Assembly: GCF_023333585.1 (NCBI RefSeq)
Contig: NZ_JAIQZN010000012.1
Location: forward strand, 1 to 64,000
Origin: Argonema antarcticum A004/B2
GTDB taxonomy: Bacteria > Cyanobacteriota > Cyanobacteriia > Cyanobacteriales > Aerosakkonemataceae
Direction of reading: 5' to 3'
Length of the DNA: 64,000 bases
Below the pieces are notes generated by a model. That model was not told where the DNA came from, did not search any database, and saw only the letters and a program-made list of their open reading frames with translations. How positions within the stretch are numbered: position 1 is the first letter of the stretch; each line of letters begins with the position of its first letter. The position numbers were made by a program, and so were the translations under genes. Below, one piece after another: positions 18,154 to 46,189 of the stretch.

Positions 18154-18165
18154 GGAAAATATTTA

Positions 18166-19104: not shown

Positions 19105-19116
19105 ATAAGCAAAGAG

Positions 19117-20337
19117 ATGAATGTCCTTCACATCAATCAGTCAGATACTGCTGGGGGAGCGGCGATCGCAGCCTACAGACTCCATCAAGGCTTGTTAGCT
19201 CAAGGGGTTGATTCGCGATTGCTAGTCGGAGAAGTCAAAACAAGCAGCGATCGCGTCGCTGTCGTAACCAGGAAGAAGCGTATTGAAGATCAAATTTATC
19301 GCTTTAGTTGGCGTCTTGGCTTTAACCATATCCACATGGTTAGCAGCTTCGATATTCCTAAACACGCCTTTTATCAAAAAACAGATATACTCAATTTTCA
19401 CAATCTTCATACCGGCTATTTTAACTACCTGGCGATTCCCTCATTGACAGCCAAAAAACCAGCAGTTTTTACCCTTCACGATATGTGGAGCTTTACAGGT
19501 CATTGTGCCTATAGTTATGACTGCGATCGCTGGAAAATAGGCTGTGGAAAGTGTCCTTACCCCGATACTTATCCCGGCATTAATGTAGATAATACCAAAA
19601 TAGAGTGGAAGCTAAAAGACTGGGTATACAGCCGCTCAAATCTAACAATTGTTACACCCAGTACCTGGCTGACCGCGCAAGTTAAGCAAAGTATGCTCAA
19701 TCGCTTTCCTATTCATAATATTCCCTACGGTATCGACACAGAAATCTACCAACCGCTCGATCCACAACAATGTCGCTCTATGCTCGGCATACCGACGAGG
19801 AAAAAGGTGATCGTGTTTTGTGCTGGCAGTCTCAAAGATCCGCGCAAAGGCGACGACCTGCTCTTGAAAGCGCTGGAAAGCCTACCTGCATCGTTAAAAG
19901 CCGAAACCGTACTTTTGATTCTCGGTGATGGCGGTGAAGCAATGGCTGAAGCTGCTGAGTTGCCTACTGTGAATCTTGGCTTTGCCAGCGGCGATCGGCT
20001 CAAAGCAATTGCCTATTCTGCTGCTGATTTGTTCGTTTTTCCCACCCGTGCCGATAATCTACCCCTGGTGCTGCAAGAAAGCATGGCTTGCGGTACACCG
20101 ATGGTTTCGTTTAAAATAGGTGGGGTGCCAGATCTGGTTCGTCCGGGTATCACGGGCTACTTAGCCCCACCGGAGGATACTGAAGACTTACGTAATGGGA
20201 TTGTCCAACTGTTGTCAGATGAAAATCTACGCGATCGCATGAGTCAGCAGTGTAGAGCGATCGCTATTCAGGAATACAGTCTCGAACTACAGGCTCACCG
20301 ATATATTGAATTGTATCGTCAATTATTGCAAAAATAG
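19117..20337 (+). CDS. Glycosyltransferase family 4 (GT-B)
   Basis: 406 residues with the two Rossmann domains of GT-B enzymes. The N-terminus MNVLHINQSDTAGGAAIAAY is typical of WcaC-like transferases. The C-terminal domain has AGSLKDPRKGDDLLLKAL and the donor-binding motif PLVLQESMACGTPMV, containing the E(x7)E region. An inserted segment with several Cys (GHCAYSYDCDRWKIGCGKCP) is characteristic of this subfamily and may bind a metal. It adds a hexose-type sugar with retention of configuration. Confidence 0.9.
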   Translation: MNVLHINQSDTAGGAAIAAYRLHQGLLAQGVDSRLLVGEVKTSSDRVAVVTRKKRIEDQIYRFSWRLGFNHIHMVSSFDIPKHAFYQKTDILNFHNLHTGYFNYLAIPSLTAKKPAVFTLHDMWSFTGHCAYSYDCDRWKIGCGKCPYPDTYPGINVDNTKIEWKLKDWVYSRSNLTIVTPSTWLTAQVKQSMLNRFPIHNIPYGIDTEIYQPLDPQQCRSMLGIPTRKKVIVFCAGSLKDPRKGDDLLLKALESLPASLKAETVLLILGDGGEAMAEAAELPTVNLGFASGDRLKAIAYSAADLFVFPTRADNLPLVLQESMACGTPMVSFKIGGVPDLVRPGITGYLAPPEDTEDLRNGIVQLLSDENLRDRMSQQCRAIAIQEYSLELQAHRYIELYRQLLQK

Positions 20338-30823: not shown

Positions 30824-31243
30824 TCAACTTGTGAATCGATTCACGATAAAAATGGTTCGATTCCGGTCTCCCGATCGCTCATAGAGGAACTTATCAACAC
30901 CTTTAATAGCTAGATACACCCCCAAACCGCCTATTTGCCGCTTTTCTAGGGGCAGATCCAAATCATCGGGGTCTGCTTTTTGGGTCGCATCGAAAAAGGT
31001 AGCTGTATCCTCAACGGTAAACTTTAGGACTCGATCGTCAATCTCGGCCTGCAAGACCAAATTGCCATCTCGCCCCGCTTCCTCATAACCATGAATAATG
31101 ACATTCGTGGCTATTTCATCTACCGCTAGACGGAGATTATAGGAAGCTTTTTTGTCTAAGCCAGCTGCGGCGGCGGCTGCCATCACATATTCTGCGATCG
31201 GTTTCAAAGAGTCTAGGGTTCCTGGTACAGTTAATGGTTCCAT
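30824..31243 (-). CDS. Anti-sigma factor serine kinase (RsbW-like ATPase)
   Basis: 139 residues of the HATPase_c anti-sigma family. The N-box LAVDEIATNVIIHGYEEAG and the Gly-rich lid GGLGVYLAIKGVD are present. Such kinases phosphorylate a STAS antagonist and bind a sigma factor or other partner. It begins MEPLTVPGTLDSLKP, nearly the same as the second copy at 32503. It lies 19 bases upstream of the GAF-PP2C gene on the same strand. Confidence 0.88.
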   Translation of the reverse strand: MEPLTVPGTLDSLKPIAEYVMAAAAAAGLDKKASYNLRLAVDEIATNVIIHGYEEAGRDGNLVLQAEIDDRVLKFTVEDTATFFDATQKADPDDLDLPLEKRQIGGLGVYLAIKGVDKFLYERSGDRNRTIFIVNRFTS

Positions 31244-31357: not shown

Positions 31358-32409
31358 CTAACTATCTTTTGCCCGCCTAACAGCTAACATCGTAATGTCG
31401 TCAAACTGATCTGCTACGCCAATATGCAGCTTTAAACTTGCCTGAAGCGTTTCCATCAAAGTAATTGCTGAAGCGATTGGCGAACCAGACTGCTGGCTAA
31501 CCACCAAGTTAAAGCGCCAACTCCTAAAACCGCGAGCGTTGCCATACCGATGGCTATCCGCTCAAACTGTATTGCCTCCTGTAAAACATCTTTTTCTTGC
31601 TGCTGAACCACCACACCCCAGCCATTTTTCAGCCGAGTAATATAAGACATCCATTGTACGCCGTCTTGCTCAGTGAAGGAAAAATAACCGCTCGAACCCG
31701 GTTTTTTCTTTAAGGTAACTTCTACTGGTGCATAATTACTGAAATTCTTAAGCTCTGTGATAAATTCTCGGTTCGGATGAGATATCACCTGACCTTTGTT
31801 ATCTACAAGCAAGGCATAACCCGTCTGACCCAAAGTAATTGAACCGACTGCGTTAGCAACTGTTGCCAGATCTTTACACAACACCATTACTCCAACGATT
31901 TGCGGTATTTTTTCAGCCCTAATTGGAGTAGATATACATAGGCGCGGTTTACGAGTCGTTTTACTAATTAGTGTCTGGCGAGTGAATAGCTGACCGCGTA
32001 TTGCTCTTTTAAACCATTCGCGATCGCTGTAATTTTGAGTATCTTTGATTCTATCGCTAGTAGCTACAGCAATACCATTTTTTCCAGTTGTAGTAATAGT
32101 GATATCTTTATAGACGCTGGCTGCTTTAGTCAGAATCAGTTTCTGCTTTTGGGCATCCATGCTAATAATATCAGGTTGTATACTTAGGTTACGCAAAGCC
32201 ATAGTATACAGATCGGCCCACTGGTTTACCAGGTTAGTCACAGCTTGACCCTTAGCTGCTAACAACTCCTTAGCATCTTGGCGCAAAATCTTTTCCGCAC
32301 GGTAACTGGTAAATAATATTCCTATCAGCATAGGAGGAATTACTGAAGCCAAAATCAAGACTGTCAGGCGGAAACCTAGAGAGCTTATAAATATTTTTTT
32401 TATGTTCAT
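31358..32409 (-). pseudogene. Cache-PP2C phosphatase gutted by internal deletion
   Basis: The first frame (32409-31456, 317 codons) has a membrane helix (about 14-32), a Cache sensor domain (about 40-275; YSDREWFKRAIRGQ, GVMVLCKDLA, GYALLVDNKGQVISH) and a second helix (about 282-304). It ends QQLL and a stop, just where a HAMP domain should begin. In the shifted frame directly beyond, about 30-40 codons read METLQASLKLHIGVADQFDD and then ITMLAVRRAKDS, the very end of a SpoIIE PP2C domain (stop 31358). HAMP and about 200 residues of phosphatase are missing. The first part could still be made as a sensor-only membrane protein. Confidence 0.82.
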
Positions 32410-32502: not shown

Positions 32503-32925
32503 TCAATGATGACGATTGACTACAAAAGTATTGCGATTGCGAGCGCCGAATCTTTCGTAGAAGAACTTATCGACACCTTGAATAGCGAGATAAACTCCCA
32601 GTCCCCCCATAGGTTTTTCTGCCATTGGCAGATTTAGCTTTGATTCTTCTAAAGCTAATTTAGAGAAGGGGTCAAAGGCTCCTCCGCAATCCTCAATCGA
32701 TATGGTAAGACTATCATCGTCGAGATCTGCTCGCAAGTTTAAATCGCCTTGGATATTGGCCTCTTCATAACCATGAATTATGATATTAGTGGCGATTTCG
32801 TCTACCGCCAGACGCAGCCTATAGGATGCCTTTTTGTCCAATCCTGCTGTGGCTGCGGCTGTCATTATGTATTGCGCGATCGAACTCAAAGAGTCTAAAC
32901 TGCCCCGTAAAGTTAGAGGTTCCAT
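32503..32925 (-). CDS. Anti-sigma factor serine kinase (RsbW-like ATPase)
   Basis: 140 residues, a paralogue of the gene at 30824 with the same MEPLT start, N-box RLAVDEIATNIIIHGYEEAN and lid PMGGLGVYLAIQGVDKFFYE. Expected to phosphorylate one of the STAS proteins at 33031 or 35663. I chose ATG 32925, the start shared with the paralogue, over an in-frame TTG 27 bases upstream. It is followed by the Cache-PP2C remnant. Confidence 0.88.
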   Translation of the reverse strand: MEPLTLRGSLDSLSSIAQYIMTAAATAGLDKKASYRLRLAVDEIATNIIIHGYEEANIQGDLNLRADLDDDSLTISIEDCGGAFDPFSKLALEESKLNLPMAEKPMGGLGVYLAIQGVDKFFYERFGARNRNTFVVNRHH

Positions 32926-32939
32926 AGATGACAGAATAA

Positions 32940-33020
32940 AATCAGTGGTCAATTGTCAGTTGTCAATTGTCAGTTGTCAGTTGTCAATTTTTCTTTAATA
33001 CTGACTACTGACAACTGACT
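32940..33020. repeat. GTCAATT/GTCAGTT heptamer arrays, partly self-complementary
   Basis: About six units of GTCAATT or GTCAGTT are followed by complementary ACTGACA units, so the RNA can fold into a hairpin between the STAS gene and the kinase gene. A shorter version lies at 33391-33430. Confidence 0.75.
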
Positions 33021-33030
33021 GGGTTTGCTA

Positions 33031-33354
33031 TTAAAGCGGACTATACTCATCCTGGATAATTACACCCTGATTGAATCCAGTCTTATTAATGGTGTCCAGC
33101 ACCATCTCCTGAGCGCCAACAACATAGATGTCAGCACTAGCCCCCATCTTTTGCTTAGTAAATATCAGCACCCGCAGACCGGCACTAGCCATATACTCCA
33201 AGTCTTGCATCATCAGTACGAGGCGTTTCGCACCTTGAGTAGCTGCTTTTTCCACTTCTGCCTTGAATTGAGGTGCCGTACTCGCATCCAGTTCTCCAGA
33301 CAAAGTGATCGTAGCGGTGTCGTTGTTTGTTTCCAGTGTTGCGTTAAAAGCCAT
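33031..33354 (-). CDS. STAS-domain anti-sigma factor antagonist
   Basis: 107 residues, a single STAS domain: ITLSGELDASTAPQFKAEV and DLEYMASAGLRVLIF, where the Ser of SAGLR is the usual phosphorylation site. Partner-switching model: phosphorylated by the kinase, dephosphorylated by PP2C, and in the unphosphorylated state it sequesters the kinase. By position it corresponds to slr1859 of the Synechocystis icfG cluster (from memory). Confidence 0.9.
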   Translation of the reverse strand: MAFNATLETNNDTATITLSGELDASTAPQFKAEVEKAATQGAKRLVLMMQDLEYMASAGLRVLIFTKQKMGASADIYVVGAQEMVLDTINKTGFNQGVIIQDEYSPL

Positions 33355-33438: not shown

Positions 33439-35562
33439 TTATTTGCCGACTAGGATAACCACAGAGCGATCGCCCACCAACATCCCATGCTGATTTTCCA
33501 GCACAGGTTCCTGACCCGGTGACCAGATATCGTTCGGTGCAGTAGCTCCCGTATTCGCAAAAACGTGCCACTTCATCCCGTCTCGCAAACCTGGGATTTC
33601 AAACCAGAGACCTTCCCAGTGCATATTCATTGCCACGTAGACATAATTATCCTCCACCGTTCCCGCCTTGGCGTGTTTGCCGCAGAGCATCATCGCGATC
33701 GTGCGACAAGACGCCGACCAGTCAGCATTCCATGCCTTAGTGCCGTGCCAGGTAATATCAGCATAACCGCTGCCCATGTAATCGCTATTACTGAAATGAT
33801 ATTTACTTCTCAGTACTGGGTGAGCGTTACGGAAAGCAATGCAGTTCTTGAAAAACCGGAACAGGTCGGCGTTTTGTTCTAAAAGCGTCCAATCCAGCCA
33901 GTTTAGCTCGTTGTCGTGGCAGTAAGTATTGTTATTGCCATACTGAGTGCGCCCCACTTCATCTCCCATGAGAATCATCGGCACGCCTGTGGAAACCATC
34001 AGAATAGCCACAGCATTTTTGATCTGCCGCCGCCGCAGAGCGTTGATCCCGGCATCGTCAGTTGGCCCTTCCCAACCGCAATTCCAACTATCGTTATCGT
34101 TGCTGCCGTCGTTATTGTTTTCGCCGTTGGCTTCGTTGTGCTTCCCGTTATAAGAAACCAAATCCAGTAGGGTAAAACCGTCGTGGGCGGTGATGAAATT
34201 AATGGATGTCGCTGGCCCCCGACCCTCCCAAGCATAGAGATCCGGCGAACCTTGGAGGCGCTGGGCTATATCGCCCACCGTGCCATCTCCTTTGATGAAC
34301 TTGCGAATGCTATCCCGGTACTTGCCGTTCCACTCCGCCCAACGTCCGAAAGCTGGGAAGGAACCAACTTGGTAGAGTCCGCCAGCATCCCAAGCTTCGG
34401 CAATCAGTTTGCACTTAGCCAAGATGGGGTCAAAGGCGAGGGTTTCCAGCAATGGTGGATTAGCCAGGGGAGCGCCCGAAGGGTCGCGTCCCAAAATAGA
34501 GGCCAAGTCAAAGCGGAAGCCGTCGATGTGATATTCTGACGCCCAGTAGCGCAAACAATCCAGCACGATGTTACGCACGATCGGATTATTGCAGTTCAGG
34601 GTGTTGCCGCAGCCGCTGAAGTTAAAATAGTATCCTTCCGGCGTTAGCATATAGTACGTCTTGTTGTCAACACCCCGAAAAGAAATTGTCGGGCCGTACT
34701 CGTTGCCTTCTGCGGTGTGGTTGAACACGACATCGAGAATCACCTCAAGGCCGTTTTTGTGCAGTTCTTTGACCAGCGTTTTTAACTCGTCAACCTGCAT
34801 CCCGATTTTTCCGGTAGCGGCGTAGCCAGCTTTGGGGGCAAAAAAGCCTACCGTACTGTAGCCCCAGTAATTTACCAGCAACTCATCTGGATTTTGGGGA
34901 TTGGGGCGGGAATTTTCAAATTCATCGAATTCATAGACAGGCATCAATTCGATCGCATTGACACCCAACTCTTTAAGGTAGGGGATTTTGTCGCGGATGG
35001 CAGCAAACGTCCCCGGATGCTTCACCTGCGAGGAAGGATGACGGGTAAAGCTGCGGACGTGCATTTCGTAAACAACCATATCTTCTGGTGGAATTTCCAG
35101 AGGACGATCGTTTTCCCAATCGAAATCGTCTAAAACGATCCGAGCGCGATGGTGATAAATGTCATTCCAATCAGGAGTTACTCCCCAAACATCCCGACCG
35201 CCGATCACCTTGGCGTAGGGGTCCATCAGAATTTTACTGGAATCGAACCAATGGCCTTCTTTAGGGTTGAAAGGCCCTTCCATCCGGTAGCCGTATTCGA
35301 TATTTTCGTAATCCAGGTCGAATACGATCGTGCAAAAAACGTTGCCAATCCTGAACTCGTCTGGGAACGGAATTTCCGCCATCGGTTCTTTAGCGTGCTT
35401 TTTAAACAGCACTAACGTACAGGATTTAGCATGAGAGGAAAAAATCGAGAAATTTACGCCTCCCGGCACCAGGGTGGCTCCGAAAGGAAATGGACGCCCA
35501 CGACGCAGCTTGAAGTCTCCGTAAGTATGCGTGGGTTGAATATCTATTCGCGCAAATACCAT
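33439..35562 (-). CDS. glgX: Glycogen debranching enzyme (isoamylase type)
   Basis: 707 residues, GH13. An N-terminal CBM48-like domain (about 15-130: GRPFPFGATLVPGGVNFSIF) precedes the (beta/alpha)8 domain with DGFRFDLAS (nucleophile Asp), LIAEAWDAGG (acid/base Glu) and FITAHDGFTLLDLV (third carboxylate). It removes alpha-1,6 branches from glycogen. A glgX gene lies in the icfG cluster of Synechocystis too. Upstream flank 35581-35663 has STRR heptamers. Confidence 0.93.
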   Translation of the reverse strand: MVFARIDIQPTHTYGDFKLRRGRPFPFGATLVPGGVNFSIFSSHAKSCTLVLFKKHAKEPMAEIPFPDEFRIGNVFCTIVFDLDYENIEYGYRMEGPFNPKEGHWFDSSKILMDPYAKVIGGRDVWGVTPDWNDIYHHRARIVLDDFDWENDRPLEIPPEDMVVYEMHVRSFTRHPSSQVKHPGTFAAIRDKIPYLKELGVNAIELMPVYEFDEFENSRPNPQNPDELLVNYWGYSTVGFFAPKAGYAATGKIGMQVDELKTLVKELHKNGLEVILDVVFNHTAEGNEYGPTISFRGVDNKTYYMLTPEGYYFNFSGCGNTLNCNNPIVRNIVLDCLRYWASEYHIDGFRFDLASILGRDPSGAPLANPPLLETLAFDPILAKCKLIAEAWDAGGLYQVGSFPAFGRWAEWNGKYRDSIRKFIKGDGTVGDIAQRLQGSPDLYAWEGRGPATSINFITAHDGFTLLDLVSYNGKHNEANGENNNDGSNDNDSWNCGWEGPTDDAGINALRRRQIKNAVAILMVSTGVPMILMGDEVGRTQYGNNNTYCHDNELNWLDWTLLEQNADLFRFFKNCIAFRNAHPVLRSKYHFSNSDYMGSGYADITWHGTKAWNADWSASCRTIAMMLCGKHAKAGTVEDNYVYVAMNMHWEGLWFEIPGLRDGMKWHVFANTGATAPNDIWSPGQEPVLENQHGMLVGDRSVVILVGK

Positions 35563-35580: not shown

Positions 35581-35663
35581 GTCAAAAGTCAAAAGTCAAA
35601 AGTCAAAAGTAAGAGAAAGAAAAAGATGCTTTCTTTTACTTGATTGCCTTTTGCCTTTTGCCT
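35581..35663. repeat. GTCAAAA and TTTTGCC heptamer arrays
   Basis: Four copies of GTCAAAA (35581-35610) and about three of TTTTGCC (35644-35663), separated by an A/G-rich stretch. The second array runs right up to the stop codon of the STAS gene at 35663. Confidence 0.85.
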
Positions 35664-35998
35664 TACTTGAGTGCTTCTAACCCTAAATCCAGCGTGTCGC
35701 ATCTGGTAAAAAAGTCGATGAATCCGGTGATGGACATGGTGTCCTGAATTTGTTCAGAAACACCTACTAGCACCAACTTTCCATCGTTGCCAGTTACCTG
35801 CCGATACAGCGACAGCAAAAATCGCAAGCCAGCACTGGAAGTATACGGAACCTGGGTCATATCCAGGATAATTTTGCTCCCTGGTTGAGCCAGAGGTAAA
35901 ACTTTTTCTTGCACTGCTGATGCTGTACTGGCATCAATGTCACCAGCCATTTCAACCACAGTTACTTCTTCTGGAAGCGTTTTTATATTGATGTCCAT
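35663..35998 (-). CDS. STAS-domain anti-sigma factor antagonist
   Basis: 111 residues with GDIDASTASAVQEKVLP and VPYTSSAGLRFLLSLY. The phospho-acceptor is probably a Ser in TSSAGLR. The position between glgX and the AGE-family gene matches slr1856, a phosphorylated protein that is a substrate of IcfG in Synechocystis (from memory). Its C-terminal codons lie at the edge of a heptamer array. Confidence 0.9.
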   Translation of the reverse strand: MDINIKTLPEEVTVVEMAGDIDASTASAVQEKVLPLAQPGSKIILDMTQVPYTSSAGLRFLLSLYRQVTGNDGKLVLVGVSEQIQDTMSITGFIDFFTRCDTLDLGLEALK

Positions 35999-36097: not shown

Positions 36098-37921
36098 TTA
36101 TTTAGGAACGATTTGCACCTTAACCTTGACTTGTTCTTGGGTGTCTGGCAGCTTAACTGTCAGGGCGTCCGAATCAAAATCGGTATACTCTTCTTCGTTT
36201 ACCCAGACTTTGCCAATGCCTATACTGCCGGGGGGCAGTATATCTGGCGATACTCGCAGGATATTGTCCTTAAAAGCCCCAGGCTGCGGCTTGAAGTACA
36301 AGTCCATCGGCTGCTTGGTAATTAACAGGTTAGTGTAAGTCGCCGCCAGGTAGCACAGTTCCGTTGAGTGATAACCGCTCATTGAGTGGCTGCCTTTTAA
36401 ACGCTCGTTACCCATCAGGAAGGGCAGTCCGTTTGCCAGGACGTTGAAGTAGACGCCGCCGTCGTCATGATCCAGGAAGTGTGCGTTGTAGAAGGCTGCT
36501 CCCTCGCGAGCGTGACGCAAGTGTTCGGGTTGCTTGTTGATCCCGTGCAGGATCAGGTAGGCCAAAATCGCTTGTTCTTGCTGCCACCAAGCTTTGCGAT
36601 CGTGCCAAACAAAGCGGTGTTGTTCTTCGCCTTCGCCCAGAACCCTTTCTACCACATCGTACCAACCACCGCGCTGCTGGTCGCTACCCGCAGCGGGTGT
36701 GACAGCGGCAATTTTTTCTGCCAGAGCCACATAGTTATCTTTGGGTTTCAGGCTGTTCATCCGCATCAAGTTCCAGGCAATTTTCAGGTTATGCCCGACG
36801 ACGGCGCGATTTTGCTGCCAACCCCAGGTTTTGTCGTGGCTCCAGTCCTCATAGAATTTTTCTTGGACAAACGGGCTGTTTTCGTAGTCTGGGAAGTATT
36901 TTGCGATCGTGTCAAAAGTGTACTCCAGCATATCGGCGTATTTCTGTTCGCCGGTTGCCAGATACAGGTTGATCAGGTACGCTGGGGCGTGGTCGCCAAC
37001 TGAGTTCCAGTTTTTGCGGCCTTGGTTGCGACCCAAAGACTCAGCACGCGGGTCGAGGGTGATGGGGTCGATGTGGGAGAAATAGCCTTCTTTCTCTTTA
37101 TCCAAGTAGAATTTGTTAAACAAATCGATCGTCATCTCCGCATCTTTGATGATGCGCGGATCGCCAGTAATCCGGTAAGTTTGGATCGGGCCTGCTAGGG
37201 CATAGATTTGTTCGTAGGCTGGGATGCAGTCGTAGTCGTCGCTAAACTCGGAGACGAGCAGTTTTAGCTCCCGATTGCCTTGTACCTTAATGCCGTGATA
37301 CCAGTAAATCAAATCTTCTTCGGTATCATAAAATCGCATATGATCCCGCAGGTATTCTGTACCTTTTTCAGCGGCTTCCAGGAAGCGGTCTTCCCCCGTC
37401 ATCAGATAAGCTGAGGCAAAACCATAAACCAGTCGAGAAACGGTGTCAGTTTCTTGCAGATAATCGTCGCGCTTTTTACCGCCAGATAGGTTGAGGAAAG
37501 TGCGGTATTCCCGGTAATCGATCGGCTCACGAGGATAATCAAACTGCCACTTTAGGTAAGAGTCTGCGATCGATCGAATCTGGTTGAGCCACCAATCCGG
37601 TTCTTCATGGCGATATTTGTCAGGAGCTTCACCCGGAAATACAAATGACTTGACGTCAAACTTATGTCCGTCTGCCTGCGGGTAGAAAACACCATAGGCA
37701 AATACGTGCTGACCGGGGGTTAATAATTCGCCGAGCCGTTGGGTAGCATCAATGTAAGATTCTTCTAGATTTTGGGAAATCCGACCCCATGCAGTCGGGG
37801 TCAAGTACGCCGTGTATTCCCGTCCATCTGATGTTTTAATGCCGAAACATTTTTCTTGGCGATTAAAGTGGGTCACGTACCCACCGATCGTATCCGAAAA
37901 TGAAAAACTCATGCGATCCAT
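36098..37921 (-). CDS. AGE-family (N-acylglucosamine 2-epimerase-like) protein
   Basis: 607 residues. A beta-rich N-terminal domain of about 110 residues (SFSFSDTIGGYVTHFN) precedes an (alpha/alpha)6 barrel of the AGE superfamily, with WWLNQIRSIAD, GDHAPAYLINLYLATG, KTWGWQQNRAVVGHNLKIAW and HDRKAWWQQEQAIL carrying the conserved Trp, Arg and His residues. It is likely to bind or isomerise a sugar, but the substrate is not known. AGGAGG lies 8 bases before ATG 37921. It corresponds by order to slr1855 in the icfG cluster (from memory). Confidence 0.82.
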   Translation of the reverse strand: MDRMSFSFSDTIGGYVTHFNRQEKCFGIKTSDGREYTAYLTPTAWGRISQNLEESYIDATQRLGELLTPGQHVFAYGVFYPQADGHKFDVKSFVFPGEAPDKYRHEEPDWWLNQIRSIADSYLKWQFDYPREPIDYREYRTFLNLSGGKKRDDYLQETDTVSRLVYGFASAYLMTGEDRFLEAAEKGTEYLRDHMRFYDTEEDLIYWYHGIKVQGNRELKLLVSEFSDDYDCIPAYEQIYALAGPIQTYRITGDPRIIKDAEMTIDLFNKFYLDKEKEGYFSHIDPITLDPRAESLGRNQGRKNWNSVGDHAPAYLINLYLATGEQKYADMLEYTFDTIAKYFPDYENSPFVQEKFYEDWSHDKTWGWQQNRAVVGHNLKIAWNLMRMNSLKPKDNYVALAEKIAAVTPAAGSDQQRGGWYDVVERVLGEGEEQHRFVWHDRKAWWQQEQAILAYLILHGINKQPEHLRHAREGAAFYNAHFLDHDDGGVYFNVLANGLPFLMGNERLKGSHSMSGYHSTELCYLAATYTNLLITKQPMDLYFKPQPGAFKDNILRVSPDILPPGSIGIGKVWVNEEEYTDFDSDALTVKLPDTQEQVKVKVQIVPK

Positions 37922-38003: not shown

Positions 38004-38603
38004 CTACTTTTCAATTTCGGCTACAAAAGCATCCATGAATTCATCTACAACGCCGGGATGCTTGCCAGTAATTAGGTTGCCATCTATAACCAGATCGGCA
38101 GTTATGTCACCATCATAGACAACATCGGCACCCGCATTTTCAACATCGCAAATAATGTTGTGGGCGCAAGTAACTTGGCGACCTTTGAGTAAATCGGAAT
38201 CGGCGCATAAAAGCCACAAGCTATGACAGATTGTGCCTATTTTCACATTTTCTGCACTCATAGCTTTTCTAATAAAAGCTACAGCCGGAGCTTGACTTTT
38301 CTCACCTTTTTTCACATTAACCTGATATCTCAACCGATCCATCGCATAGGCACCAATGCAAATAATGCCTTTATAATCAGCCGGGTCAATATCGTTAATT
38401 TCTGTGCTGACAGTCGCATGATATTCTACTTTGTCATTCTCTGGGTTGGAGCCAAAGGTTAATTCTTTATTGCCCCACAAATGAGAGATGTACTCGACTT
38501 CATATCCTTGTTGAGGAAAGTACTCATTGAAGCGGCGATATTCCGTGGGATCGAAGTGTTCTTCAATGATTACACCAATTTTTCCTTTGATCTCATCTGT
38601 CAT
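38004..38603 (-). CDS. DJ-1/PfpI-family protein
   Basis: 199 residues. The nucleophile-elbow Cys126 in IGTICHSLWLL is followed by His127, with the partner Glu near residue 14 (VIIEEHF). This family includes glyoxalase III-type, chaperone and protease-like members. The 26-residue insertion with GSNPENDKVEYHATV is typical of a cyanobacterial subgroup. AAGGAG precedes the ATG. It links the SnoaL/EthD genes upstream to the AGE and STAS genes downstream. Confidence 0.85.
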   Translation of the reverse strand: MTDEIKGKIGVIIEEHFDPTEYRRFNEYFPQQGYEVEYISHLWGNKELTFGSNPENDKVEYHATVSTEINDIDPADYKGIICIGAYAMDRLRYQVNVKKGEKSQAPAVAFIRKAMSAENVKIGTICHSLWLLCADSDLLKGRQVTCAHNIICDVENAGADVVYDGDITADLVIDGNLITGKHPGVVDEFMDAFVAEIEK

Positions 38604-38814: not shown

Positions 38815-39189
38815 TTATGGGGCGAATACCGGCGTAATATCCATGTAGATATTCAGTTGCCGAATTAAGTCGCCTTCCATACGGATGACATCGGTGCAGG
38901 GAAGCGTAAACACTTTACCGTCATGACGGGTGTAGGTGACATCCATTTCACAAATCGCTGTGTCTCCCGTCTCCCAGATCGATTTGATGTTGTGAGATAC
39001 GGCTTTCACTTTCTGGCGGAAAAGAACCGAAGAATCGCGAATGCCAGAACGTCCGATTGTAGGTTCAGTATTGCCAAACTGGTATACTGCGTCCTCAGTA
39101 AAAATAGATGCGAATTCATCCGCAGAGTTGCTTTCCTCCAGCCAACGCTTGATTATTTTTGCTATGTCTCCTGGAAGCTTTTTTGACAT
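38815..39189 (-). CDS. SnoaL-like (NTF2-fold) protein
   Basis: 124 residues, one NTF2-like alpha+beta cone: EFASIFTEDAVYQFGN, GRSGIRDSS, TAICEMDVTYTRHDGKVFTLP and YMDITPVF. It is a copy of the same SnoaL type found in three other genes here (39412, 40303 and 41274). The second Cys of LPCCD is Thr (LPCTD). The family includes cyclases and isomerases on polyketide- or steroid-like substrates. Start ATG 39189 instead of TTG 39204. Last of the block. Confidence 0.82.
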   Translation of the reverse strand: MSKKLPGDIAKIIKRWLEESNSADEFASIFTEDAVYQFGNTEPTIGRSGIRDSSVLFRQKVKAVSHNIKSIWETGDTAICEMDVTYTRHDGKVFTLPCTDVIRMEGDLIRQLNIYMDITPVFAP

Positions 39190-39346
39190 TTTTTGACCAA
39201 TCAACGCCGCTTATAGGTTGCTAATAACTGAGTATTATCCTTGTTTCTTCCCTCTTGCCTCTTCCCCTAGTCTCTAGCCTCTAGTGCAGCGCGGCAGAAA
39301 TAATCCACCAGTTCAGAAGTAGTTAAATGCCTTACACTCAAAGGAT

Positions 39347-39375
39347 TTTTGACTTTTGACTTTTGACTTTTGACT
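39347..39375. repeat. Heptamer array, four copies of TTTTGAC
   Basis: Four copies of TTTTGAC between two SnoaL-like genes. The neighbouring stretch has duplicated CTAGCCTCTAGT segments at 39275-39285 and 39388-39400. Confidence 0.85.
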
Positions 39376-39411
39376 TCCGCGTAGCGGCACTAGCCTCTAG
39401 TCCATCTTATA

Positions 39412-40215
39412 CTAGCGCCCCTTATAGGCTGCTAATAATTGAGCGTTATCGAGGAATTCGCGATAGCTCAACAATACGCCATTTTTGACGGTGAGGATAT
39501 GAACGTAGTCGGACTTAAAGTCTATGCTAGTAGCCTTCACCATACTGTGAACGTATCCCAGGACAATGATCGTATCCCCTTCGGCGATAAACTTGTGTTG
39601 TACGGAATTCTTAACTTCAAGTGTAGTAACCAGCGTTTGCAGGAAGTCTAGTATTTGCTTTTTGCCTTTACGCAAACCGCACAAGGGGATTTCTGTTGGG
39701 CCAATTAATTCCCAAGTACTCTCCTCTGTCATAGCGTCTAGCCAAGGCTGGATCTCGCCCCGTTTAAATGCCGCGTACAACCCTTTGATAAACTCCAAGT
39801 TGGACTGCGTATCAACTGGTTCTTCATCCTTGGCGAATAAAGGATTAAGGTCTAGGTAGGCTCGCAGTTCCCGAATTAAGTTGTTATCGTCGAATCGGAT
39901 GGTATCGCAGCAGGGAAGCTTAAAAACTTTGTCGTCTTGGCGGGTGTAACTAAGCACCATTTCGCATACTACTGTATCGCCTCCCAACTCCCACATGGCT
40001 TTGATCTCGTGGGAAACTTTCTTGAACATTTGCATGACAGGACCTGCTAAGTCCTTAATACCTTGGTGTCCGTAGACAGGATCGTTGTTGGCGACTTTAT
40101 AAAATGCGTCTTTACTGAAAAAGGAGACGGTTTTGTCTACGTCGTTGGTTTCGACGGCGACGAACATTTTTCTCACTATTTCTGACATTACGCCTGGAAA
40201 TCTCTCTATTGACAT
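39412..40215 (-). CDS. Tandem SnoaL-like protein (two NTF2-fold domains)
   Basis: 267 residues. The first domain (about 1-130) is of the local LPCCDTIRF type: VYGHQGIKDLAGP, TVVCEMVLSYTRQDDKVFKLP, ELRAYLDLNPLF. The second (about 140-267) is a different SnoaL/ketosteroid-isomerase branch: FIKGLYAAFKRGEIQPWLDA, STWELIGPTEIPLCG, YREFLDNAQLLAAYKGR. GGAGG lies before ATG 40215. Likely to bind a small hydrophobic ligand; chemistry unknown. Confidence 0.82.
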   Translation of the reverse strand: MSIERFPGVMSEIVRKMFVAVETNDVDKTVSFFSKDAFYKVANNDPVYGHQGIKDLAGPVMQMFKKVSHEIKAMWELGGDTVVCEMVLSYTRQDDKVFKLPCCDTIRFDDNNLIRELRAYLDLNPLFAKDEEPVDTQSNLEFIKGLYAAFKRGEIQPWLDAMTEESTWELIGPTEIPLCGLRKGKKQILDFLQTLVTTLEVKNSVQHKFIAEGDTIIVLGYVHSMVKATSIDFKSDYVHILTVKNGVLLSYREFLDNAQLLAAYKGR

Positions 40216-40302
40216 AAATCCTCCGTAGGTTTGTATAGTTTGTTTGGGAATCGTGCAGAGGTAAACTGGTATGAGGAATGCGATCGCAACTAACTAGAGT
40301 AA

Positions 40303-41190
40303 TTAGGCCGCGAAGACAGGAGAAATGTCCATATAAATCCGCAATTCCTGAATTTTGCCGCCCTTAATGAGGATGGTGTCGCAGCAGGGAAGCGTAAACA
40401 CCTTGCCATCAAAGCGGATGTAGGTAACCTCCATTTCGCAAACCACCGTATCTTCTCCAATTTCCCACATATTTTTGATGTGGTGGATTACTTTCTCAAC
40501 CGTTTTGATGAATTCACCTGAAGCTTCCCGGATGCCTTGGGGGCCATATACGATCGGAAAATTACTGAACTGGTACAACCCATCATTGGCGTAGAATTTG
40601 ACGAAGTTGTCTATATTCATCGACTCGCCAGCTTTGAACAGCTGTCTGACCAGATTTGACATTTCACCCGAACTTCCTGCTGTCGTGGTTGCTGGCGGTC
40701 TTAATGCAGATGGAACGGGTGCTTGATTGTTGGTATTTTCACCCTCTAGGATACTTTTGAGCTGCATAACAGCGCCTTGGATCTTTTTTGGTTTGGCAGC
40801 TTCAATAAACCACTTAGCATCCGGGTGTTGTTCTGCTGTGTTGCTGCTAGGCTTGAGGTCAATGGTGTAAGTGACTATCGGCACAGGCCCTGATTTGTGA
40901 ACTTCAGGGGAAGTTACTTTGTTAGCGATCGTGCCTGTAAAAATCGGGTGATCTACCAGATGGAATGTTACCGAACCTTCTTCTTTGTTCACATAGGTTC
41001 TTTCTTTCATGTGCATCTCCGAGGTTTTTATTTCTCGGAGAATGCCTCCATCCGGGTATTTTTCCCAGACCTTATAAAACTCAACTTCATATGGAATATA
41101 CTTGTGGGGATTTTCCATTTTATCCAACAAATGATTCCATATTGTTTCTAGCGAGGCATTAACAGGAGCGCTCCATGTGGCGTAAAGCAT
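40303..41190 (-). CDS. SRPBCC (AtaL-like) - SnoaL fusion
   Basis: 295 residues. The N-terminal part (about 1-150) is an SRPBCC-type helix-grip domain like AtaL/DUF1857: ATWSAPVNASLETIWNHLLDK, YIPYEVEFYKVWEKYPDGG, FHLVDHPIFTG. After a Pro/Ala/Thr linker (about 155-175) comes a SnoaL domain with YGPQGIREASGEF, LPCCDTILIKGG and LRIYMDISPVF. Both folds enclose hydrophobic ligands, so this is a two-pocket protein. It lies 84 bases after the end of the 834-residue fusion gene. Confidence 0.82.
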   Translation of the reverse strand: MLYATWSAPVNASLETIWNHLLDKMENPHKYIPYEVEFYKVWEKYPDGGILREIKTSEMHMKERTYVNKEEGSVTFHLVDHPIFTGTIANKVTSPEVHKSGPVPIVTYTIDLKPSSNTAEQHPDAKWFIEAAKPKKIQGAVMQLKSILEGENTNNQAPVPSALRPPATTTAGSSGEMSNLVRQLFKAGESMNIDNFVKFYANDGLYQFSNFPIVYGPQGIREASGEFIKTVEKVIHHIKNMWEIGEDTVVCEMEVTYIRFDGKVFTLPCCDTILIKGGKIQELRIYMDISPVFAA

Positions 41191-41273
41191 AGGTTTTAAA
41201 AGACTTCAGTGTAAATGTTGGTAGCACTTTACCAACTAAAGTTACAGAGTGGATTTGAAAGTTGTTGAAAAGT

Positions 41274-43778
41274 TTAAGACATGAAGACAGGAGAGATGTC
41301 CATATAGATCCGCAATTCGCTAACCTTGTCTCCTTTAAAGCGGATGGTGTCGCAGCAGGGAAGCGTAAACACTTTGCCATCAAAACGAATGTATGTAACT
41401 TCCATTTCGCAGATTACCGTGTCTGCTCCAACTTCCCAAATATGCTTGATTTTGTGATATAAAGCCTCAACTGTCTGAATGAAAGCTGTTGAAGCATCTT
41501 TGATTCCTTTAGGGCCGTATACAATTGGGAAGTTACTAAATTGGTAGAGGGCGTCGTCGGTGTAGAACTTGACGAAATTGTCAACATTCATGGATTCGCC
41601 TGCTTTGAACATTTCCTTGACTATCTGTGTCAGCTGTCCGGGAAATCTTTCGCTTGTCATAGCTTTTTCCTGCGTTGCGATCGTAGGTTCTTTTATGGTA
41701 TGAGATCCTAGCCAAGCGGAGGTGGGTTTTGTGATGGTATCTGAAGCCCAAGGGAAGCTTGTTCCGTGCGCTTCGTTATATTCCTTTTGCGCTCTGCGGA
41801 ACATTTGATTGGCTTTGCGAGTTACTTGGTTAAATTCCAGCTGTTCGCCGTTTGGCCCTTTACAATAAAACAGCGACCAACCGTGAAAGTCGCCAAATTC
41901 TGCATCCGAGTATCCTTCGATAAAATATTCAGGCTCGTTCCAGAATTTGTTGGCGTAGTATTTGAGCGCTACTTTTCTTCTTTCTTCTTCCGAATTAACG
42001 TGAATAATTCGGTTACAAATGACGCCTGTCATCCCTCGGCTTTGACATTCTTCTTCCAAGATTTTGGCGAACATATTGAGATCCACATCATCTTTTACGT
42101 GGAAAGAGATGTGGGGTACGTTCGCGAAACCTACGCAGGAAGGAACTTTTTGGTAAACGTTAGGTGCATTTACATTCAATTTAGCATCTCTGAAATGTAT
42201 CACCTCTATTACGGTGTTGCCAAAGGAAATGAACCTAACGTCCAAAGCTTCTTTCGTCCCATCTCTTAAGTCTGCTACGCCAAGTTCTCTGGGGTCGATA
42301 CCTCGTTGAATTGCCTCAATATCTTCCTTCTGGAAGAGAGTATTGTGTACCACTGGGCCAATAAATCCATCGCCGCTAATGGCGATTTTTCCCCCTAACA
42401 CTTCGGTGTAAAATTCTATGGCTTTTGCCATATTATCAACTGTGATACCGAAGTGTTGCACTCCTTGCAAGTAATGACCTAAGCTTTTCTTACTATTCTG
42501 GTTGCCGCTCATCATAGAAACTACGTCGTCCCTCAGTTGATTGGTTGCGCCTATGTTTAGGATCAGTTCTGCCACCCTGGAACTGCGTTGTCCCGCCAGA
42601 GTAATCTTGCTGTCGTAGACAAATGTGTGAGATGTTCGCTCTGGAAATGGAGAGATGTCTTTAACGTACTCTGCTTGGTCTTTTATGGCAGTAGCGTACT
42701 CTTTGGAGGCAAAAAACTTTTCCATTTCCAGGGGATTGGAGAAGGCAATTTCAAAGGCGGCTTGATATTGCTTCTGGGGCGGTTCGTGATGAACTACTCC
42801 CGCCGCTTCGGGACGCGAGTTGTCTACTTCATCAAATATATGCAGTCGGAATTTGAGAACTGATTCGTTTTGAACAACAGCTGGTGCAAAGCTGTTTTTC
42901 ATGTAAGACTGAAATTCTTCGACGGTGGCGCGATCGGCTTTTCTGACTAAAACGTGGAATTTGAGAACGCCTACTTCTCCGTTGGGATCGCCTGTGGGGA
43001 TGCCGTCAACGTAGGTTTTGGAGTTACCGGGACTGCTGTTGTAGCCGATCGCTTTGCTGAACAAGTTGTGTTCGTCGTCCATCAGTATGGCTGCTGCTTT
43101 AAACCATGTCTGACGGTCTTGTTCTGTTTCAAATGTTAGTTCGGCAATGCCATCGAATTGATCTTCTTCCGCAGTAATGTAATTTACGCTATTACTTTGC
43201 GGCCAAATACCACCTTGATTGTGTGCTAGGTGAAATTGCCAGTATTGGTGTTGTCCTGGTAGTCTGGCGCACACTGGGCCATGAACGTCTTTCCAATAGT
43301 TATCGAAAAGTTCTAAGGTGATGCCTTTTCGTTTCCACAAGAGGACGTAGAAGGCGACTTTTCCTTTTTCGTCGCGGCTGGCATAATCAACCTGCCTAAC
43401 TGGAGTTTTACTTTGGGGAACGCTCGTTTCCTCAAAAAATTCTTTAACTAGACCGGAGGCAGCTCCGACCTTGTTAAATCCAGTGTAAGCGCTCAAGAAA
43501 AAAAGCAGTTCTTCGATTTCGGCGCGGGTGGCTCCTTGCTTGAGAGCCATGTCTATATGCGATCGCAAAGGATTGACAGTACCTTTTTGATTTTGGTTGA
43601 CAATATCAACTGCGATCGTAATTAGAGCTTTGGCTTTTTGGCTAATGAATGGCTGCCCCCATGCTTCGCCTGCTACGCGAGTAACAAAGTCACCGAACTT
43701 CAGGTTGACACCTTTTAAACCCGCCTGAAGTTCTTGATCGTCGAGAACTGCATTTTGGTATTCTTTGTTCTCTGTCAT
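41274..43778 (-). CDS. CMD - EthD - EthD - VOC - SnoaL five-domain fusion
   Basis: 834 residues in five domains. Carboxymuconolactone-decarboxylase-like at about 5-115, without the CxxC of AhpD. Two dimeric alpha-beta-barrel EthD-like units at about 140-255 and 270-390 (DYWKDVHGPVCARLPG-like motif). A vicinal-oxygen-chelate (glyoxalase/dioxygenase) domain at about 438-655, with candidate metal ligands His442, His556 or His560 and Glu648. SnoaL at about 710-832 (LPCCDTIRF, YMDISPVF). Such domains usually occur as separate small enzymes. ATG 43778 is 1 base from the stop of the upstream gene, so translation is coupled. Confidence 0.85.
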   Translation of the reverse strand: MTENKEYQNAVLDDQELQAGLKGVNLKFGDFVTRVAGEAWGQPFISQKAKALITIAVDIVNQNQKGTVNPLRSHIDMALKQGATRAEIEELLFFLSAYTGFNKVGAASGLVKEFFEETSVPQSKTPVRQVDYASRDEKGKVAFYVLLWKRKGITLELFDNYWKDVHGPVCARLPGQHQYWQFHLAHNQGGIWPQSNSVNYITAEEDQFDGIAELTFETEQDRQTWFKAAAILMDDEHNLFSKAIGYNSSPGNSKTYVDGIPTGDPNGEVGVLKFHVLVRKADRATVEEFQSYMKNSFAPAVVQNESVLKFRLHIFDEVDNSRPEAAGVVHHEPPQKQYQAAFEIAFSNPLEMEKFFASKEYATAIKDQAEYVKDISPFPERTSHTFVYDSKITLAGQRSSRVAELILNIGATNQLRDDVVSMMSGNQNSKKSLGHYLQGVQHFGITVDNMAKAIEFYTEVLGGKIAISGDGFIGPVVHNTLFQKEDIEAIQRGIDPRELGVADLRDGTKEALDVRFISFGNTVIEVIHFRDAKLNVNAPNVYQKVPSCVGFANVPHISFHVKDDVDLNMFAKILEEECQSRGMTGVICNRIIHVNSEEERRKVALKYYANKFWNEPEYFIEGYSDAEFGDFHGWSLFYCKGPNGEQLEFNQVTRKANQMFRRAQKEYNEAHGTSFPWASDTITKPTSAWLGSHTIKEPTIATQEKAMTSERFPGQLTQIVKEMFKAGESMNVDNFVKFYTDDALYQFSNFPIVYGPKGIKDASTAFIQTVEALYHKIKHIWEVGADTVICEMEVTYIRFDGKVFTLPCCDTIRFKGDKVSELRIYMDISPVFMS

Positions 43779-43779
43779 C

Positions 43780-45330
43780 TCAACCTGTGGTGATCAACCT
43801 GATTAGTTCGTTAGGTGCAAAAACATCGCGGTAGAATGTTAGCTGCTCGGTTTTTAGGTGGCACCCGCCTCGGTGTCCGCGTCGAACCCAAGTTACATTT
43901 CCTTTGGCCAGTGTTTCGTTGGTAGCATCGTCTACGCACTTCCATTCAAAATACGTAACTTCACCGTGAAACATCACGATCGGCCAGCACATGGTTACTC
44001 CAGGCTGAGCAATCAACGCCCACCAATGTTTTTCGCGCTCTTTTTGTTGTTCCAATCCGAAATAAGGGCCATCCTGACAGAGATAAACGAGATCCTCGCG
44101 ATATTCGCCAGTTAAAATATCACCGCGTCCCTGTCTCAATGCTTCGCAATGAGTAGGCCACCAATCTTTGTTTTCTTGCTCGATTTGTTGGAGCGTATAA
44201 TAAGGGCCAAGTTCTGGCAATGTCCTTTCTTTCATTGCCACAAACCTTTCGGCATCTTCGATCAGTTTTTTAGCCACATAAGAACTAACAAGTCCAGGCC
44301 GAGAATAATCGGCTGACAAATCTTTGTAGAAATTAACTCGTTTGTTCAGTGGTTGTTTGCTGGTTTGATTTGCTTGCATAGTTTGTGTTGTGCTGCTAGT
44401 AGAACCGTTTGGTTGTGAAAGGATAAGTTTTTGGTCGAGCATCAGAGAAACTATGTCGTCTCTCAGTTGATTGGTTGCGCCTATACTTACGATTAAATCC
44501 GCAACAGTAGAACTGCGTTGACCGGCTAAAGTCATCTTGCTGTCGTAGACAAATGTGTAAGCTGTTCGCTCTGGAAATGGGAAGATATTTTTGACGTATT
44601 TTGTCTGGTCTTTTACGGCAGTAGCGTACTCTTTGGAGGCAAAGAATTTTTCCATTTCCAGGGGATTAGAGAAGGCAATTTCAAAGGCGGCTTGATATTG
44701 CTTCTGAGGCGGTTCGTAATGAACTACTCCCGCCGCGTCGGGACGCGAGTTGTCTACTTCATCAAATATATGGAGTCGGAATTTGAGGACTGACTCGTTT
44801 TGCACCACAGTTGGCGCAAAAGTGTCTTTCATGTAGGAGCGAAATTGTTCGACGCTGATGCCATCGGCTTTGGCGACTAGGACGTGGAACTTTAAGATCC
44901 CCAATACACCGTTGGGATCGCCTGTGGGGATGCCGTCAGCGTAGGTTTTGGAGTTACCGGGACTGCTGTTATAGCCGATCGCTTTGCTGAACAAGTTGTG
45001 TTCGTCGTCCATCAGTATAGCTGCTGCTTTAAACCATGTCTGACGGTCTTGTTCTGTTTCAAATGTTAGTTCGGCAATGCCATCAAATTGATCTTCTTCC
45101 GCAGTAATGTAATTTATGCCATTATTTTGCGGCCAAATACCACCTTGATTGTGTGCTAGGTGAAATTGCCAGTATTGGTACTGTCCTGGTAGTCTGGCGC
45201 AGACCGGGCCATGAACGTCTCTCCAGTAGTCATCGAAAAGTTGTAAGGTGATGCCTTTTCGTTTCCACAGGAGAACGTAGAAGGCGACTTTTCCTTTTTC
45301 ATCGCGAACGGCGTAATCTGCCTTTCTCAT
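43780..45330 (-). CDS. EthD - EthD - NTF2-like fusion protein
   Basis: 516 residues. The first 300 or so are two EthD-like units nearly identical to those of the neighbouring 834-residue protein (KGKVAFYVLLWKRKGITLQL, YWRDVHGPVCARLPGQYQYW). After a Gln/Thr-rich linker (about 305-330), the C-terminal 185 residues form a larger NTF2-like domain: WWPTHCEALRQGRGDILTGE, LVYLCQDGPYFGLEQQKE, GVTMCWPIVMFHGEVTYFEW. This is the type found alone in some cyanobacterial and fungal genes as a SnoaL-like hydrolase/cyclase. AAAGGA precedes the ATG. Confidence 0.82.
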   Translation of the reverse strand: MRKADYAVRDEKGKVAFYVLLWKRKGITLQLFDDYWRDVHGPVCARLPGQYQYWQFHLAHNQGGIWPQNNGINYITAEEDQFDGIAELTFETEQDRQTWFKAAAILMDDEHNLFSKAIGYNSSPGNSKTYADGIPTGDPNGVLGILKFHVLVAKADGISVEQFRSYMKDTFAPTVVQNESVLKFRLHIFDEVDNSRPDAAGVVHYEPPQKQYQAAFEIAFSNPLEMEKFFASKEYATAVKDQTKYVKNIFPFPERTAYTFVYDSKMTLAGQRSSTVADLIVSIGATNQLRDDIVSLMLDQKLILSQPNGSTSSTTQTMQANQTSKQPLNKRVNFYKDLSADYSRPGLVSSYVAKKLIEDAERFVAMKERTLPELGPYYTLQQIEQENKDWWPTHCEALRQGRGDILTGEYREDLVYLCQDGPYFGLEQQKEREKHWWALIAQPGVTMCWPIVMFHGEVTYFEWKCVDDATNETLAKGNVTWVRRGHRGGCHLKTEQLTFYRDVFAPNELIRLITTG

Positions 45331-45364
45331 TATCTTGTTTTCCTTTGTCCAATGCTAGTGCTTG

Positions 45365-46102
45365 TTAAATTCTCCTTTGTGCCAAATACTCGTTAAGCGA
45401 TCCGAAGGCGGCTGCGACTTTGTTGAATCCAGTATAAACGCACAAAAACAAAAGCAGTTCTTCGATTTCTTCACGAGTTACTCCATTTTGAAAAGCGATA
45501 TCTAAATGGAGTGAAAAAGGATTGTTTGGGCCGACATGATCTTGATTGGCAATATCAACTGCGAGGGCGATTAAAGCCTTGGTTTTAATGTCAATTAATG
45601 GTAGGCTCCAGGCTTCACCAACTACCCGAATACTGAAATCGCCCAATTGGGGGTTAACGCTTTTCAAATCTTTTTGCAGCGCTAGATTATCCAAAATCGG
45701 GTTGGCCGTTTTCACCATTGTTGCTGTCCTTGGTGGTGGATATTGTTGAAGATTTACGTTATCAAAAAACTCGTTGAGCGCACCGAAACAACTGGCGACT
45801 TTATTGAATCCAGTATAAACGCATAAGAACAAAAGCACGGCTTCGACTTCTTCGCGGGTGGCTCCTTGCTTGAGCGCCATATCTATATGGGCTCCAAAAG
45901 GATTGCCTGGGCCTTTTTGATCTTGATTGGCAACGTCAACTGCGATCGTTATTATAGCTTTGGTTTTTTGGTCAATCAAAGGTAGACCCCATACTTCGCC
46001 TGCTACGCGAGTAACAAAATCACCAAATTTGGGATTGAGGCTTTTTAAAGCGTTTTGCAGGTCTTTATCTTCTAAAACCGCGTTTTTGTAGTAGTATGCC
46101 AT
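45365..46102 (-). CDS. Tandem carboxymuconolactone-decarboxylase-like protein
   Basis: 245 residues formed of two CMD repeats (about 8-118 and 130-243) that share KFGDFVTRVAGEVWGLPLID and LLFLCVYTGFNKVA. Neither has the CxxC thiol pair of AhpD peroxidases, so a decarboxylase or ligand-binding role is more likely. It is first in the leftward block; slr1853 in the Synechocystis icfG region is also a CMD protein (from memory). The stop is 34 bases before the next gene. Confidence 0.85.
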   Translation of the reverse strand: MAYYYKNAVLEDKDLQNALKSLNPKFGDFVTRVAGEVWGLPLIDQKTKAIITIAVDVANQDQKGPGNPFGAHIDMALKQGATREEVEAVLLFLCVYTGFNKVASCFGALNEFFDNVNLQQYPPPRTATMVKTANPILDNLALQKDLKSVNPQLGDFSIRVVGEAWSLPLIDIKTKALIALAVDIANQDHVGPNNPFSLHLDIAFQNGVTREEIEELLLFLCVYTGFNKVAAAFGSLNEYLAQRRI

Positions 46103-46155: not shown

Positions 46156-46189
46156 CTTGTAGAGACGTTTCATGAAACGTCTCTACAAG
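46156..46189. repeat. 34-base perfect palindrome
   Basis: 17-base arms meet with no loop; the core is GTAGAGACGTTTCA and its complement. This is a variant of a dispersed palindrome frequent in filamentous cyanobacteria. It lies 54 bases upstream of the CMD gene and in its RNA leader would form a hairpin. Confidence 0.85.

Follow-up and report, generated by a model that had tools for sequence, protein, structure and literature searches.

We examined a 64,000-nucleotide stretch of contig NZ_JAIQZN010000012.1 from the cyanobacterium Argonema antarcticum A004/B2 (genome size 7.7 Mb), hereafter the window, in which six leftward genes (46102-38815, the block) run into a set of AGE-STAS-glgX-STAS-RsbW-PP2C genes (the core). 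This arrangement is a real, conserved and elaborated form of a partly known operon, the icfG operon of Synechocystis. Our best reading, held with middling confidence, is that it represents a mobile alpha-glucan module under partner-switch control, to which enzymes have been recruited that would process a small carbonyl-type product. What is new here is that the core is not exclusively cyanobacterial: it occurs on plasmids of Streptomyces and Deinococcus and, without PP2C, in Runella. The domains, their synteny and fusions, the conserved residues and the occurrence across phyla were observed directly. The genes of the block and those downstream of it are as follows.

45365..46102, minus strand: 245-residue protein with two CMD domains (PF02627 1.5e-24, two stretches)
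43780..45330, minus strand: 516-residue protein with two EthD domains (by Pfam) and a C-terminal orphan domain of ~186 residues (the 'WWPTHCEALRQ' domain)
41274..43778, minus strand: 834-residue fusion CMD-EthD-EthD-VOC-SnoaL_2 (Pfam)
40303..41190, minus strand: 295-residue protein, SRPBCC (AtaL-like) and SnoaL_2, joined to the 834-type protein in other genomes
39412..40215, minus strand: 267-residue protein with two SnoaL_2 domains (PF12680 8.9e-22, 2 stretches)
38815..39204, minus strand: 129-residue SnoaL_2 protein (Pfam), TTG start
38004..38603, minus strand: DJ-1/PfpI family protein (Pfam)
36098..37921, minus strand: AGE-family epimerase-like protein, 607 residues (PF07221; aligns to AGE/cellobiose 2-epimerases)
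35663..35998, minus strand: STAS protein 1 (Pfam; STAS is fused to AGE in relatives)
33439..35562, minus strand: GlgX glycogen debranching enzyme (TIGR02100 711.3 bits, cut-off 640.9)
33031..33354, minus strand: STAS protein 2 (open reading frame, ORF; matches annotated anti-sigma factor antagonists)
32503..32952, minus strand: RsbW-type ATPase/kinase 2 (ORF; matches an annotated ATP-binding protein of locus L058)
31456..32409, minus strand: dCache sensor protein (PF02743)
30824..31243, minus strand: RsbW-type ATPase/kinase 1 (ORF; matches annotated anti-sigma regulatory factors)
29347..30804, minus strand: GAF-SpoIIE/PP2C phosphatase, taken as icfG-like by position and domains

Counted from the first gene on, the gaps within the block are 34, 1, 83, 87 and 207 bp, and 211 bp separate it from the DJ-1 gene; the coordinates and the number of six leftward genes given in the original prediction, which had been made from the sequence alone, were correct. 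Pfam assigned three CMD, four EthD, one VOC (Glyoxalase), one SRPBCC (below cut-off) and five SnoaL/NTF2 domains, in agreement with the earlier census except that it had counted six of the latter. The five supported copies are at the C-termini of the 834- and 295-residue proteins, twice in the 267-residue protein and in the 129-residue protein. A signature said to be shared by four of them (KVFTLPC-D ... YMDI-PVF) is exact in three (834, 295 and 129), but the N-terminal copy of the 267-residue protein diverges, with KVFKLPCCD ... YLDLNPLF. At E<=0.001, the 7.7-Mb genome yielded no EthD copies other than the four of the block, all of which are above cut-off. The SRPBCC domain of the window scored 20.1 bits against the AtaL cut-off of 27; two of three homologues scanned were above it (39.8 in L045 and 34.5 in L058) and one below (25.9 in L044). 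The PcaC (4-carboxymuconolactone decarboxylase) cut-off of 155.7 bits was not reached by the 245-residue (72.3 bits) or the 834-residue protein (35.5 bits). The block CMD domains are nearer PcaC, and the 245-residue protein scored 12.4 bits against an AhpD-domain cut-off of 27.8.

The set AGE-STAS-glgX-STAS-RsbW-PP2C, which we define as icfG-type from the window (the Synechocystis content being taken from passages of papers), lies there in one orientation, and its debranching enzyme belongs to GlgX by a score above the TIGR02100 cut-off. The claim that the block runs straight into DJ-1, AGE, STAS and glgX was borne out, and the switch is fuller than had been claimed, with two STAS proteins, two RsbW-type ATPases, a dCache protein and a GAF-PP2C phosphatase. 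The core order is identical in L047 and also, with an extra PP2C-type gene, in L041. All 11 terminator-like sites on the coding strand between 29000 and 47100 are intragenic and none lies between genes, which is weak evidence for a single transcript; promoter-like sites were not enriched (25 versus 27.5 in shuffles) and were not used. Judged from the sequence, the block and the downstream genes have the layout of an icfG-type operon, and the block is linked no less strongly to glgX and AGE than to the switch.

The conservation of this layout was examined at 21 named loci (two from one genome; flanks of up to 10 kb), each encoding a relative of the 834-residue protein: 17 from Nostocales, two from Pleurocapsales, one from Phormidium and one from an Ignavibacteria metagenome-assembled genome. 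Block genes, DJ-1 and AGE occur together at 15 of these loci; among them, L055 includes only the start of AGE within the stretch, and L057 has CMD, EthD and the orphan domain without VOC or SnoaL. At 10 of the 21 (L043-L052), one ORF of 1005-1178 residues encodes CMD-EthD-EthD-VOC-SRPBCC and one or two SnoaL domains, a long fusion that the window splits into its 834- and 295-residue genes. Single-chain fusions of this kind are the usual sign of a common pathway. In a draw of 386 genomes of the cyanobacterial phylum, AGE was found in 36 and DJ-1 in 39 (E<=1e-10), and all 25 genomes with the orphan domain possess both (hypergeometric 4e-31 for AGE, a value that ignores shared ancestry); in 21 of the 25, no more than 15 kb separate the orphan domain from AGE. 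The whole 834-residue query matched 119 of the 386 genomes, mostly through weak matches to its CMD region in small genomes that do not belong to the class. Relatives of the 834-residue protein are thus not scattered without a conserved neighborhood, and the conserved synteny and the fusions indicate that the linkage between block and core is real and beyond chance.

AGE also matched 17 plasmid records (eight Streptomyces, four Nostoc and one each from Runella, Gemmobacter, Deinococcus, Gloeothece and Gloeocapsopsis), with at least 60% identity in 13 and 36% in the weakest, and the neighborhoods of all 17 were inspected (flanks 8-14 kb). An annotated DJ-1 gene is present in 15 records (the stretches retrieved for Nostoc C052 and N. 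edaphicum lack one), and a GlgX-like gene in 14; the latter was not found in two Streptomyces, and the Nostoc ATCC 53789 plasmid has in its place a cut amylase-family gene, 37% identical. STAS, separate or fused, occurs in 15 of 17, an annotated EthD, NTF2/SnoaL, VOC or CMD gene in 14, and a thiamine diphosphate (ThDP) enzyme together with an amidotransferase-annotated gene (ThiJ-like by Pfam in the one checked) in 13. Five Streptomyces plasmids and one Deinococcus plasmid have the same core order as the window, and Runella keeps it up to RsbW, without PP2C; identities to the window are 61-65% for AGE, 62-70% for GlgX and 46-47% for PP2C. Next to the core, the add-ons elsewhere are SnoaL, EthD, VOC, GMC or ThDP genes, and on some Streptomyces plasmids EthD is the only gene of the block's domain set. 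Pfam assigns the Streptomyces and Gemmobacter EthD proteins to that family, and they gave no tblastn match to the window EthD. In Runella, eight of nine consecutive genes before DJ-1, VOC and AGE have a SnoaL-type match (one below cut-off), and none matched the window SnoaL copies by tblastn at 1e-4; therefore, a similar SnoaL array may have been recruited twice beside the core, as this weak similarity suggests. Further neighbors are sugar enzymes, namely aldose 1-epimerase, glucose 1-dehydrogenase, GlgE, TreS and GlgB. The same enzyme-switch set thus recurs with interchangeable small-molecule enzymes, and the presence of the core with differing add-ons on plasmids of unrelated bacteria suggests a mobile pathway. 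The cluster on the Nostoc ATCC 53789 plasmid also contains, between its EthD and GMC genes, two genes annotated as Nif11-type leader peptides (L085 18164-18824).

In a midpoint-rooted tree of 26 AGE sequences, Runella fell in a well-supported group with the window, Phormidium and Nostoc (99/97), adjoining Streptomyces and Deinococcus (98/95), with other cyanobacteria outside. This pattern fits horizontal transfer, within the limits set by rooting and by long branches, that of Runella included. It could be argued that the block is a natural-product or catabolic cassette parked beside a mobile operon and functionally unlinked to it, since both occur on plasmids and some copies of the block or of the orphan domain are distant from AGE. 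However, we consider such hitch-hiking unlikely: gene and domain order are conserved across families, AGE is present in every genome with the orphan domain, the block accompanies both fused and unfused AGE, and in Runella a SnoaL array stands beside the same core.

Part of the operon has been studied in Synechocystis PCC 6803, where slr1852-slr1862 are reported to form one salt-repressed operon tied to primary carbon metabolism (PMC8670252). The passages describing this cluster include slr1853 (CMD), slr1855 (GlcNAc 2-epimerase), slr1857 (glgX/isoamylase), the STAS-type slr1856 and slr1859, slr1860 (icfG, PP2C) and the kinase slr1861 (PMC8670252, PMC12329169, PMC3564720); slr1853 is tabulated as CMD in an ethanol-response table (PMC3564720). 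Slr1856 is phosphorylated by Slr1861 and the phosphate is removed by IcfG, and links between the operon and carbon and glucose regulation in this organism go back to the 1990s (PMC12329169). The window shares with the cluster its CMD, epimerase, STAS, glgX, PP2C and kinase genes, whereas EthD, VOC, SRPBCC or SnoaL are not named in these passages, which do not list every gene. For the enzyme part, an undescribed small-molecule pathway under the switch, as first suggested, is the best reading; no paper treating the extended block, or the cross-phylum module, was found in the open-access literature by title, abstract start or terms. Presumably, slr1852 corresponds to the orphan domain and slr1854 to the DJ-1 gene. 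The fusions and the plasmid copies in several phyla make it testable why glgX, AGE and CMD genes accompany a sigma-factor-type switch in the icfG operon. The set of STAS, RsbW and PP2C is like that of the Rsb/Spo partner switches; unlike these, the window operon also holds metabolic enzymes, and STAS is fused to AGE in eight of 26 proteins.

The window AGE resembles the cellobiose 2-epimerase/AGE family in its PF07221 match and in aligning with solved members over two histidine motifs (the second against 5zig only), which we take to be catalytic. It differs in scoring at most 27 bits to any solved member, in an extra N-terminal region and in the STAS fusion of its relatives. In the eight fusions among the 26 AGE proteins examined, STAS is C-terminal to AGE in one chain; they are found at two Nostoc loci and one Fischerella locus, on three cyanobacterial plasmids, and in Gemmobacter and Ignavibacteria. 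A Pfam check of three of them placed STAS well above cut-off in L037 and L039 and at 23.0 versus 22.6 bits in L057, where a second STAS model was below its cut-off; in L039 the AGE family was not listed by Pfam at 0.01, yet over this part the protein shares 64% identity with the window AGE. The window has a separate STAS gene directly after AGE. The fusion in relatives suggests that STAS works with AGE. The response-regulator/thioredoxin-reductase-like fusion of L077 (16501-18159) follows an AGE-STAS fusion gene, and FAD-dependent oxidoreductases of the same length also follow the AGE-STAS gene in L078 and L079.

Extending this partnership, we tentatively propose, while regarding it as rather unlikely, that the icfG operon is a mobile metabolic module shared across phyla, with STAS docking on and switching the AGE epimerase itself, and not only a sigma factor. 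Partner switching would then directly gate a small-molecule pathway that starts from alpha-glucan and for which several cyanobacteria use one fused protein of six or seven small domains. A STAS protein acting on AGE would place an enzyme under the direct control of partner switching. The serine just before the A/E-G motif, presumably the phosphoserine position, is kept in two of four aligned fused STAS domains (L037 and L057) and missing in L038 and L039; therefore, simple phospho-switching of the fused form is disfavored. The AGE-STAS fusion in relatives, together with the adjacent STAS, RsbW, PP2C and dCache genes, might also be taken to mean that the small-fold domains bind a metabolite and signal carbon status to the partner switch. 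This ligand-sensing role appears distinctly unlikely, however, because the domain labels at the 21 named loci show no fusion of a block domain with STAS, PP2C or kinase, catalytic-type residues are retained in VOC and DJ-1, and Streptomyces plasmid core operons have only an EthD gene of this set.

These residues were identified in sets of aligned sequences filtered by identity and coverage. H8, E91, H122 and E214 of VOC are invariant in 23 sequences, and the window VOC appears glyoxalase I-like in this H/E/H/E order, which we take to be that of the glyoxalase I metal ligands. All named VOC families of NCBIfam scored below their cut-offs for the window protein, and therefore no membership in any of them is claimed. 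In DJ-1, Glu14 and Cys126-His127 are invariant in 22 sequences. Of the two roles first suggested, small-molecule processing or sensing, the retained residues of VOC and DJ-1 favor the former, and sensing has no direct support. The SnoaL domains resemble SnoaL-type cyclases and limonene-1,2-epoxide hydrolases (LEH) through SnoaL_2 membership and through the top Foldseek matches of the 834-residue model, which are LEH folds (no query range is given). The LEH sequence match is to the C-terminal domain of this protein. In this copy, the one tested of five, the positions of the Asp-Arg-Asp triad, which we assume to be catalytic in LEH, are Ile, Glu and Glu, and an identity as limonene epoxide hydrolase was ruled out. 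The AlphaFold2 model is partly usable, with a mean predicted local distance difference test score (pLDDT) of 51.3 (second EthD mostly 76-90, SnoaL 55-78, VOC <50).

The conserved VOC and DJ-1 residues would also suit a protective function, in which reactive carbonyls or peroxides, arising as glycogen is mobilized under drought, salt or carbon stress, are detoxified by DJ-1 (glyoxalase III/deglycase-like), by VOC with its glyoxalase-I-like ligands and by CMD/AhpD-type domains. Consistent with this are the amidotransferase-annotated gene (ThiJ-like in the one checked) of 13 of the 17 plasmid records, a desert cyanobacterium and Deinococcus among the hosts, and the salt response described for the Synechocystis operon in the passages on it; yet salt represses that operon and does not induce it (PMC8670252). 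Moreover, such protection leaves AGE, GlgX, the repeated SnoaL and EthD domains and the ThDP/GMC enzymes unexplained, and the CMD domains are nearer PcaC, with the 245-residue protein far from the AhpD-domain cut-off. Thus, stress protection is a doubtful account of the whole set.

In the alpha-glucan module that we prefer, GlgX would take sugar units from storage alpha-glucan and AGE would probably epimerize the released sugar or oligosaccharide, the core being governed by the partner switch (RsbW kinases, PP2C phosphatase and two STAS proteins). The CMD, EthD, VOC, SRPBCC and SnoaL domains and the orphan domain would work together as a single multi-enzyme assembly, converting a small product of the core or of a joined pathway that probably bears a carbonyl, and DJ-1 would handle reactive carbonyls. 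That the enzymes are active, the order of the steps and the class of the product are what we infer here. A protein that fuses EthD, VOC and SnoaL would be an unusual multi-enzyme built solely of small folds.

Several observations weigh against this scheme. Six of the 21 named loci (L042, L045, L050, L053, L054 and L056) lack AGE/DJ-1 within the fetched stretch, in four of the 25 genomes (G145, G187, G278 and G382) the orphan domain is not within 15 kb of AGE, and two Nostoc plasmids carry it without the block, beside an AraC-type regulator and ~17 and ~35 kb from AGE. The ThDP enzyme of other phyla is nearest benzoylformate decarboxylase, and the GMC enzymes are closest to choline dehydrogenase and alcohol oxidases (none of these scores reaching its curated cut-off); these add-ons point to aryl or alpha-keto chemistry and not to sugars. 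In the Argonema genome, ThDP matches were only 29-30% identical (E<=1e-20), and no GMC match was found at 1e-10 in a search without a positive control. Finally, the residues of limonene epoxide hydrolase are not kept in the SnoaL copy tested, and small SnoaL, VOC and EthD folds may also be binding proteins. A sugar and an aryl/keto-acid substrate are both possible.

For the orphan domain (residues ~330-516 of the 516-residue protein), no Pfam, credible PDB or profile-profile match was found, and its predicted model is poor (pLDDT 41.5). Therefore, an NTF2 identity of this C-terminus is neither demonstrated nor excluded, and six NTF2 domains, of which this would be the sixth, were dropped as an established fact. 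Within the block it ranks with the best-conserved parts: at 69 of its 186 positions, at least 37 of 38 sequences have the same residue; CMD is similar (50 of 125 positions, 39 sequences). Beyond the 25 of 386 cyanobacterial genomes, the domain was found in one of 247 genomes of the phylum of the Ignavibacteria genome, which is the centre genome itself. A tblastn search of 72,556 plasmid records with the 516-residue protein gave six matches, one of them (Roseomonas) to EthD only. In Gloeothece verrucosa (L059 14782-16400), the orphan domain and EthD are separate genes, and CDGSH iron-sulfur genes flank the EthD gene.

Additional genes were observed around the block in several genomes. Other Nostoc loci add annotated aldose 1-epimerase, DUF4432, glucose 1-dehydrogenase, NHL and gluconolactonase-type proteins and sugar-type transport genes. 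In Nostoc sp. WHI, an HxlB/HxlA pair (L050 8260-9558; 6-phospho-3-hexuloisomerase and 3-hexulose-6-phosphate synthase, above curated cut-off) is directly upstream of the gene for EthD and the orphan domain, near which a 280-residue fusion of HbpS-like and glyoxalase domains is also encoded (L050 6496-7338); unannotated ORFs of the same sizes as the pair occur in L053 (Amazonocrinis). Between the block and DJ-1, L043 encodes a 737-residue cupin-CHRD-RTX protein (16761-19461; similar in L051) followed by a 106-residue ABM-type protein, and ORFs sized like these two are at the same place in L044, L046, L048 and L049. In the window, a perfect 15-bp palindromic stem (46156-46189) with a T-run on the plus strand lies directly upstream of the first block gene and may be a repeated element, and an IS605-type TnpB/OrfB protein is encoded at 50358-51560, ~4 kb past the block.

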